From Pseudomonas putida (lineage in GTDB: Bacteria; Pseudomonadota; Gammaproteobacteria; Pseudomonadales; Pseudomonadaceae): a stretch of DNA of 64,000 nt. The first letter of the stretch is position 1. Each line of letters begins with the position of its first letter. The notes beneath the pieces are model-generated. The model was not told where the DNA came from, did not search any database, and saw only the letters and a program-made list of their open reading frames with translations. The stretch lies in the NCBI RefSeq assembly GCF_001976065.1, contig NZ_MNAH01000011.1, forward strand, positions 55 to 64,054. The letters are read 5' to 3'. Position numbers and translations under genes: made by a program. Shown here piece by piece: positions 15,815 through 16,682 of this stretch.

Positions 15815-16090
15815 AGATCAAGAGATCATTCGAGCGCGGCCCGAACGTTCGGCAGCTTCTATAGGTGTTTGCGCGGGTTGTTTAATGGCTGTCGGAATCA
15901 CTTCTTGAAAGCTACAACACCTTGCGCCGTTACCTACAGGTACGCCAGAATCCGCCGGCTTGTGCGCCTTGGACCCCCTCGGTAACTTGATTCGCGTCAC
16001 TGCCCATCAGTGATCGGGTTTAGTCGCCCGCTGTGACACGAAGCGCATTTTCATCCCAAACAGTCAGGCCATTTCATGTCCTGTACTTCA
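15815..16090. other. Non-coding region upstream of the folded DUF6124 leader
   Basis: No convincing gene. It contains the small hairpin TCACTG-CCCAT-CAGTGA (15997-16013) and the segment GTGATCGGGTTTAGTCGCCC. I associate this with sequence often found before DUF6124-type genes in fluorescent pseudomonads, from memory and unverified. It may hold the promoter of the downstream gene. Confidence 0.4.
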
Positions 16091-16168
16091 TGGCAGCTGT
16101 GCGCAGGGCGCCTTCGGGCGCGCCGGTTTTCGTGCTCCGCCGGTCGACTAACCTGCGTACAGCTGCCA
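16091..16168 (+). ncRNA. Highly structured leader RNA before the DUF6124 gene
   Basis: A 17-bp stem pairs 16091-16107 (TGGCAGCTGTGCGCAGG) with 16152-16168 (CCTGCGTACAGCTGCCA), with one G-U pair and no bulge. Inside are a GCGCC-UUCG-GGCGC hairpin (16108-16121) and a second hairpin GCCGG/CCGGU (16122-16144). A three-way junction with a UUCG tetraloop is strong evidence for a functional RNA. It ends about 55 nt before the ATG of the DUF6124 gene, so it could be a 5' leader or a cis-regulatory/processed element. No known Rfam class is claimed. Confidence 0.6.
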
Positions 16169-16222
16169 CCCCTCTTGTTTAGTCGCAAGTAGGTGACGGC
16201 TCCACATCTGGAGCATTCAACT

Positions 16223-16582
16223 ATGGTCAAACCTTCACCAAATCCGCCGAACACCGATCCGGCATCCCCATACGAACCCGATTCAAAAAAACTCAACGAA
16301 GCCGCCGAACGCGCCCTCGATTACCACTTCCCCTCGACCGCCGACATCAAGGCCACCCCGCGCACCATCAGTACCCTGTTTACCGTAGACCCTGAAGCCA
16401 CGACCGAAACCCTGGTGGTGTATCTGGTCGAAACGCTGGCCTCGGTCGATGTCATGGTTCATTACCTGGTCGACCATTTGGAGGGCAGTTCGCGCAATGT
16501 TTTGCTGGGTATTTCAAACAACGTCATGCTGGCGGAGATCACGGCGAACCGAGTGCTGGACCAAATCGAACCATCTGCATAG
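16223..16582 (+). CDS. DUF6124 family protein (Pseudomonas-specific)
   Basis: A 119-residue acidic, cytoplasmic, mostly helical protein. The conserved opening PNPPNTDPASPYEPDSKKL is followed by NEAAERALDYHF and a Val/Leu-rich C-terminal helical half. Such genes occur in multiple copies in fluorescent pseudomonads and have no known function. GGAG precedes the ATG at 16223. It stands behind the folded leader and is followed by an inverted repeat. Confidence 0.75.
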   Translation: MVKPSPNPPNTDPASPYEPDSKKLNEAAERALDYHFPSTADIKATPRTISTLFTVDPEATTETLVVYLVETLASVDVMVHYLVDHLEGSSRNVLLGISNNVMLAEITANRVLDQIEPSA

Positions 16583-16587
16583 CGCAA

Positions 16588-16682
16588 GGAGCTGCCGCAG
16601 GCTGCGATCTTTTGATCTTGATTTTCTGTCAGTCCCAAGACGATCTACATCAAAAGATCGCAGCCTGCGGCAGTTCCTACAG
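16588..16682. repeat. Inverted repeat of a second REP class
   Basis: GGAGCTGCCGCAGGCTGCGA followed by TCTTTTGAT on the left mirrors ATCAAAAGATCGCAGCCTGC followed by GGCAGTTCC on the right. This is a different REP family from the GGGAGCGGG type. It lies 5 bp after the DUF6124 stop and may act as its transcript end. Confidence 0.82.

Follow-up and report, generated by a model that had tools for sequence, protein, structure and literature searches.

C4 antisense RNA upstream of a DUF6124 gene

A chromosomal copy of the C4 antisense RNA lies directly upstream of a DUF6124 gene in Pseudomonas putida, and very probably controls this gene by the mechanism that C4 uses in phage P1. It was found in the window, the 64,000-nucleotide stretch of contig NZ_MNAH01000011.1 analysed here, where the segment 16091–16168 is, judged by its sequence and fold, the Pseudomonas copy of the C4 RNA known from P1. 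The locus is made up of the following parts (5' to 3'):

15944–15966 (+), promoter box GCCAGAATCCGCCGGCTTGTGCG, defined by conservation at DUF6124 loci, overlapping the putative −35 element
15960–15988 (+), putative sigma-70-like promoter TTGTGC-17 nt-TAACTT, proposed from conservation across copies
15983–16034 (+), c4-a1b1 element, RF03163-like (32.2 bits, E 4e-6, below the gathering score of 46.7 bits)
16020–16026 (+), a1, UUAGUCG, complementary in sequence to the C4 linker a'
16037–16042 (+), b1, CACGAA, complementary to part of the C4 loop b' (6-nt match)
16086–16173 (+), C4 antisense RNA, Rfam RF01695 match, 81.3 bits
16091–16168 (+), folded core of C4: 17-bp stem, UUCG hairpin and second hairpin, from folding
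16092–16170 (+), predicted mature C4 RNA, from the annotated ends of P1 C4
16127–16139 (+), b', loop of hairpin 2, anti-Shine-Dalgarno (duplex with b2 −12.2 kcal/mol)
16145–16151 (+), a', 7-nt junction linker CGACUAA (duplex with a2 −7.8 kcal/mol)
16179–16185 (+), a2, target UUAGUCG, complementary to linker a'
16210–16216 (+), b2, target GGAGCAU, complementary to loop b', containing the Shine-Dalgarno sequence 6 nt before the ATG
16223–16582 (+), DUF6124 open reading frame, 119 residues from the ATG (PF19619); the frame is also open from a GTG at 16193

The outer stem runs without interruption (16091–16107 pairs with 16152–16168) and encloses a UUCG-capped hairpin (16108–16121), a second hairpin (16122–16144), which has a 13-nt loop in the Rfam-type parse, and the linker. 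This is exactly the fold described in the initial annotation, which had also placed the start codon about 55 nt downstream; the ATG lies 54 nt past the stem. The claim that such a structure is far above random holds as well: the core has a minimum free energy of −52.1 kcal/mol with a z-score of −5.31, and 0 of 200 dinucleotide shuffles are equally stable (−52.7 and −5.50 for the C4 region of the window with its flanks included). The RNA is not undescribed, as had been supposed. In a scan against Rfam 15, the C4 antisense RNA family RF01695 is the sole match in the window above a curated cut-off (45 bits for this covariance model), and a model built from the copies of the genus finds P1 C4 at 54.4 bits.

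Compensatory changes are present. In a set of 45 C4 copies (16 from the same genome and 29 best matches of other genomes), double-sided changes occur in 17 of 27 pairs, 98.4% of the cells are compatible with pairing, and 0 of 500 shuffles attain any of five measures of covariation, a result that leans towards structure because the 45 rows were collected by covariance-model search. The covariation is located in hairpin 1 and the outer stem; hairpin 2 displays no double changes in this set.

Linkage to DUF6124 and distribution

The open reading frame behind C4 matches PF19619 with 81.8 bits (cut-off 27). The same genome carries 16 C4 copies, 16 c4-a1b1 matches (7 above the cut-off) and 18 DUF6124 matches, in line with the description of DUF6124 as a multi-copy family. 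A DUF6124 gene follows 11 of the 16 C4 copies at an E-value of 0.001 and 12 at 0.01. When loci are instead collected by protein similarity from Pseudomonas records, 78 of 80 DUF6124 loci have a C4 leader upstream at a similar distance, which ties the RNA to these genes as opposed to an unlinked mobile repeat. The remaining two are a locus in which just 50 nt precede the reading frame (L181) and one with another kind of leader (L208).

Seven of the 18 DUF6124 matches in the genome of the window have no listed C4. Two of these are truncated, and L021 looks severed from its leader. Three DUF6124 copies of this genome (L025, L033 and L034) keep the promoter box or a1b1 without a C4 match and could be deletion remnants or, alternatively, targets open to C4 in trans. 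C4 is not DUF6124-specific either, since 28 of the 134 C4s of four genomes have no DUF6124 match downstream at an E-value of 0.001.

Both partners are widespread in the genus. Among 40 genomes, this one included, C4 is found in 36 (35 above the Rfam cut-off), with up to 42 copies each, and DUF6124 in 32, with up to 43 copies each. Their copy numbers correlate with a Spearman coefficient of 0.84, uncorrected for kinship. Four genomes have C4 without DUF6124, and none has DUF6124 without C4. Outside the genus, C4 was found, in a search with stricter filters, in 11 of 228 sampled genomes of the same class (up to 4 copies), and DUF6124 in none of the 228. Weinberg 2010 lists C4 from Proteobacteria and c4-a1b1 from gamma-Proteobacteria, and both of them also from phages (PMC2864571). 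In full-text searches of open-licence PMC papers, no paper was listed as linking C4 to DUF6124, and none mentions DUF6124 or PF19619. The scale and the target of C4 in this genus thus seem unreported in the open-licence papers searched.

Leader and RNase P-type ends

Upstream of C4, a block of about 60 bp (window about 15908–15966) is strongly conserved among DUF6124 leaders and ends at the putative −35 element; within the genome, its 23-nt core occurs solely at DUF6124 loci. The GCCAGAATCCGCCGGCTTGTGCG box has 11 sites in the genome at up to 3 mismatches, all 11 at DUF6124 loci (9 at loci with C4 and 2 at remnants), and 0 in the control. In two genomes, a 26-nt core of the box is found within 8 mismatches upstream of 31 of 58 C4s, and no recognisable core precedes the other 27. 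A scan with the sigma-70 consensus found no promoter at the leader. As the operator Oc4 of the P1 C1 repressor overlaps the −35 element of promoter P2c4, the box may bind a shared regulator.

The ends of the RNA carry the determinants expected of an RNase P substrate. Across 86 copies of the genus, G+1, C72, C74 and C75 are invariant, while U-1 is found in 82 and A73 in 77 copies; G+1, C72, C74 and C75 are also present in 16 of 16 copies from outside the genus. C4 as annotated in the P1 record starts at this G+1 and ends at the second C (C75). Because the determinants coincide with the annotated P1 ends, the mature RNA is predicted to span 16092–16170, and cleavage would be carried out by RNase P.

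Loop and linker pair with the cognate target

The loop and the linker of C4 are matched by sites downstream of it and, less consistently for the loop, upstream. Exact downstream matches of at least 7 nt to the linker are found for 15 of 16 copies in the genome of the window and 36 of 42 in genome G019 (5.0% and 7.6% in mismatched pairs), and to the loop for 9 of 16 and 30 of 42 (2.5% and 5.2% in mismatched pairs). Upstream matches of at least 7 nt are likewise common for the linker (16 of 16 and 38 of 42) but are found for the loop in only 5 of 16 and 14 of 42 copies. A Shine-Dalgarno-type core is contained in 93 of 134 predicted b2 sites, and 73 of 132 end 4–7 nt before the predicted start.

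When the two duplex energies are summed, a C4's own target is its best partner for 119 of 134 C4s in four genomes (15 of 16 in the genome of the window, 36 of 42 in G019, 32 of 35 in G010 and 36 of 41 in G036), and the target of another gene scores better for the other 15. The genome means lie between −20.0 and −22.3 kcal/mol for own pairs and between −9.8 and −11.3 for all other pairs, the observed mean energy is attained in 0 of 5000 re-pairings in each genome, a test that treats C4 copies as independent, and 1.5–5.0% of non-cognate targets come within 2 kcal/mol. The pairing set contains 35 of the 36 C4s of G010 and leaves out those of G005 and G039. The loop and linker sequences were taken at constant distances from either end of the match, so that copies with shifted stems are misread but kept; a stem parse below 14 of 17 pairs was found in 3 of 42 copies in G019 and 3 of 76 in G010 and G036 together. 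In G019, the loop alone ranks the own target best or tied for 25 of 42 C4s, and 21 of 42 targets have their own C4 as best or joint best partner; it is therefore the loop and the linker jointly that make up the code and its insulation.

Loops differ from copy to copy. Distinct loops number 16 of 16 in the genome of the window, 42 of 42 in G019, 33 of 35 in G010 and 40 of 41 in G036. Among 77 close relatives (of 78 loci, one with less than 200 nt upstream being dropped), 47 different loops occur and the loop–b2 duplex scores −13.45 against −6.23, with 0 of 2000 re-pairings reaching the observed value. By eye, an entropy map of these 77 loci shows the promoter box, the a1 hairpin, the C4 stem and the coding start to be conserved and b1, the loop and b2 to be hypervariable. 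Third codon positions vary too, so the variable sites reflect freedom under complementarity and not proven diversifying selection. In a tandem pair in G019 (L086 and L087), the C4s are identical outside the loop and the unpaired ends, and each loop is matched by its own version of b1 and b2. Other genera of the class show the pairing too: in a set of 16 of their C4s, none of 2000 re-pairings reaches the observed value, and the summed energy ranks the own target best for 12 of 16. All of these re-pairing tests take the copies as independent. The 28 C4s that entered the pairing comparison as the best of their genomes are high scorers by choice.

The idea that copies in the same genome never share a loop is unsupported. 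Although 0 of 62 same-genome pairs did so in the earlier sample of 77 loci, three such pairs are now found among 2396 within genomes, compared to 22 of 6515 between genomes; in a stem-matched set the counts are 3 of 258 and 19 of 653 (Fisher p 0.15).

Proteins encoded behind C4

The predicted structure of the DUF6124 protein (mean pLDDT 79.6, pTM 0.49) contains two confident long helices. It has no fold match at an E-value of 0.001 or better in the PDB or among viral folds, and the sequence has no match in PDB sequences, in NCBIfam or PHROGs, or among the toxin and defence families of Pfam and PADLOC. By profile comparison, DUF6124 looks like a distant relative of DUF3077 (P 1.7e-5, probability 78.5%, with three DUF3077 rows only). 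DUF3077 genes themselves are found behind C4, at about 50 nt in L083 and L097 and farther away in L002.

Other products linked to C4 comprise Bro-N anti-repressor-like proteins, Rha, a SymE-family protein and un-named families. Anti-repressor-like genes of the Bro-N/Rha type, the classical kind of C4 target, follow C4 in L084 (G019), L055 (G011), L057 (G005), L125 and L134 (G263) and L130 (G106), and are thus present also inside the genus; L055 and L057 were assigned by eye from their likeness to L084. In L133 (G116), a SymE-family toxin gene (PF08845, 48.8 bits) begins 51 nt after the C4 match, and this C4 possibly controls a type I toxin-like gene.

Two groups of small proteins recur behind C4. 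One is a family of 89–109 residues (alignment A4, six rows), encoded at L004, L008 and L016 in the genome of the window and at L115, L117 and L120 in G019; the four of its six members that were tested have no Pfam match, and the family has no profile relation to DUF6124 or DUF3077. The other consists of alike peptides of 52–58 residues (e.g. MHALNPSKIRAAAHRAMALAALHANSSL...) encoded directly behind high-scoring C4s (L051, L052, L053, L056, L058, L061, L063, L067, L071 and L077), two of which were tested and have no Pfam match.

Genomic placement

Seventy of the 80 DUF6124 loci, selected by length, were compared by their flanks (blastn, over 400 nt, E 1e-40). Sixty-two share both flanks with no other locus, and the remaining 8 form 4 pairs. 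In addition, 11 relatives that match the cytochrome c gene adjoining the DUF6124 copy of the window (67–83% identity) have neither DUF6124 nor C4 (E 0.001) within about 1.5 kb; one of them, L228, has a weak match to the C4 model (22.4 bits, E 0.0028). These relatives are not clean empty sites, because the amidase neighbour is missing too. With flanks so rarely shared and relatives without the unit, C4–DUF6124 units seem either to relocate or to have a rapid turnover. A search for cassette ends at the DUF6124 loci showed no conserved right-hand end. Behind the DUF6124 gene of the window lies a long palindrome (16585–16680, GGAGCTGCCGCAGGCTGCGATCTTTTGATC... and its complement), in which Rfam microRNA matches fall below the cut-off and presumably arise by chance.

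A single phage record matches DUF6124. EU982300.1 ('phage DVM-2008'; L217) has at one end, next to prtR, a DUF6124 gene with a C4 leader; a holin and phage regulators lie deeper within the record. This end of the record is probably host chromosome flanking a phage-like cluster, so that DUF6124 as a phage gene is doubtful. Plasmids gave no DUF6124 protein match and two weak partial DNA matches.

Proposed mechanism and alternative explanations

By the P1 scheme, a single promoter would transcribe a1b1, C4 and the DUF6124 reading frame together. RNase P would then cut before G16092, as the invariant determinants predict, and free a stable C4 of about 79 nt, whose a' and b' could bind the a2 and b2 sites of additional DUF6124 transcripts, a pairing to which the covariation of loop and target points. 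Since b2 contains the Shine-Dalgarno sequence, translation of DUF6124 would be blocked, as in P1, where, according to a review (PMC12197685), C4 prevents translation of the ant mRNA at its ribosome site and is the basis of the heteroimmunity of P1 and P7. By analogy, C4 would act in trans to stop translation and, since each copy tends to have a loop code of its own, the majority of C4s should chiefly repress the gene behind them in the cell. Synthesis of DUF6124 would require C4 to be in short supply, for example upon a burst of transcription, loss of C4 or its titration by a1b1. The RNA had been proposed at the outset to be cis-regulatory or processed. It is structured, tied to DUF6124 and probably processed; judged by its homology to P1 C4, it is probably more than a cis element.

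A purely cis-acting structure, i.e. a leader switch or attenuator in which the a2 and b2 sites are bound by the linker and loop of the same molecule, would also give specific cognate pairing, and C4 and its target are separated by only about 40 nt on what would be one transcript. Such an element would need no RNase P determinants, whereas G+1, C72, C74 and C75 are kept in 86 of 86 copies and the determinants match the annotated ends of the P1 RNA. Moreover, a2 follows so closely behind the 17-bp stem that pairing back to the linker at its far end would be sterically awkward, and the same review (PMC12197685) lists P1 C4 as trans-acting. Cis action alone is consequently given little chance. It is scarcely credible that the RNA is a REP- or ERIC-like structured repeat that came to lie before DUF6124 genes by chance. 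Many copies per genome and a stable stem would suit such a repeat, but its identity as one was rejected on the C4 leader found, at a similar distance, at 78 of 80 DUF6124 loci, and the Rfam C4 match and the co-varying loop and target argue against it as well.

The unit may, less probably than not to a clear degree, be chiefly a mobile cassette or a toxin–antitoxin-like addiction module, in which C4 restrains a harmful DUF6124 protein and the pair is selfish. Such a module could well operate through the C4 mechanism, and the odds of the two readings do not compete. The rarity of shared flanks (merely 4 pairs among the 70 close loci), the cytochrome c relatives that lack the unit, the high and uneven copy numbers of C4 and DUF6124 and the SymE-type toxin gene behind one C4 of the class are all in its favour, as is the division-inhibiting activity that a further paper gives for Icd, the product of the P1 C4 target (PMC8198154). 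Against it stand the lack of a conserved right-hand end, the amidase neighbour that is missing along with the unit, and a DUF6124 protein that is unrelated to Icd and matches no toxin or defence family, PDB sequence or fold.

Control by C4 assigns a likely regulator to DUF6124, a family for which the literature searched describes none, and opens a way to test what DUF6124 and DUF3077 do, through the loss or mutation of a single C4. An antisense RNA family has multiplied here to dozens of copies in one genome, most of which keep separate pairing codes, and nature thus offers a library in which the insulation of RNA regulators can be studied. As a tentative speculation, a phage immunity RNA might have been adopted by some species of the genus and spread over the chromosome as 16–42 antisense switches that are largely insulated, each with its own loop and target code and most guarding a small DUF6124-type protein, with units moving between sites. 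Such parallel 'heteroimmunity' circuits would release small proteins, perhaps toxins or anti-repressors, upon titration of C4, e.g. by a phage with a matching target.

Comparison with phage P1 and other known systems

Antisense RNA also silences a small protein in type I toxin–antitoxin systems such as SymE/SymR. There, the antitoxin RNA is usually encoded on the opposite strand or at a separate site, whereas C4 is encoded on the same strand directly upstream of its target. The locus shares with the c4-a1b1 motif (RF03163) the putative target sites a1 and b1 directly before C4, although its 32.2-bit copy scores below the cut-off of that family.

The closest counterpart is the c4-icd leader of P1, in which a promoter, a1 and b1, C4, a2, b2 over the Shine-Dalgarno sequence and a reading frame follow one another as their candidate counterparts do here. 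The two C4 RNAs are alike in their fold, hairpin 1, linker a', loop b' and RNase P-type ends, and the distance from the 3' end of C4 to the reading frame is 50 nt in P1 and 52 nt here (from the predicted mature 3' end). Because the gene downstream is DUF6124, which has no similarity to P1 Icd, the locus would work like a P1-type immI operon (c4-icd-ant) without being one. It also differs from P1 in a conserved box that occupies the place of the C1 operator. Whereas C4 targets icd-ant in P1 and P7, its targets here are mostly DUF6124 genes, along with DUF3077, Bro-N and others, and, unlike in those phages, a genome of the genus carries up to 42 copies with differing loops. In this genus, a known antisense RNA is present in a new and greatly multiplied form.
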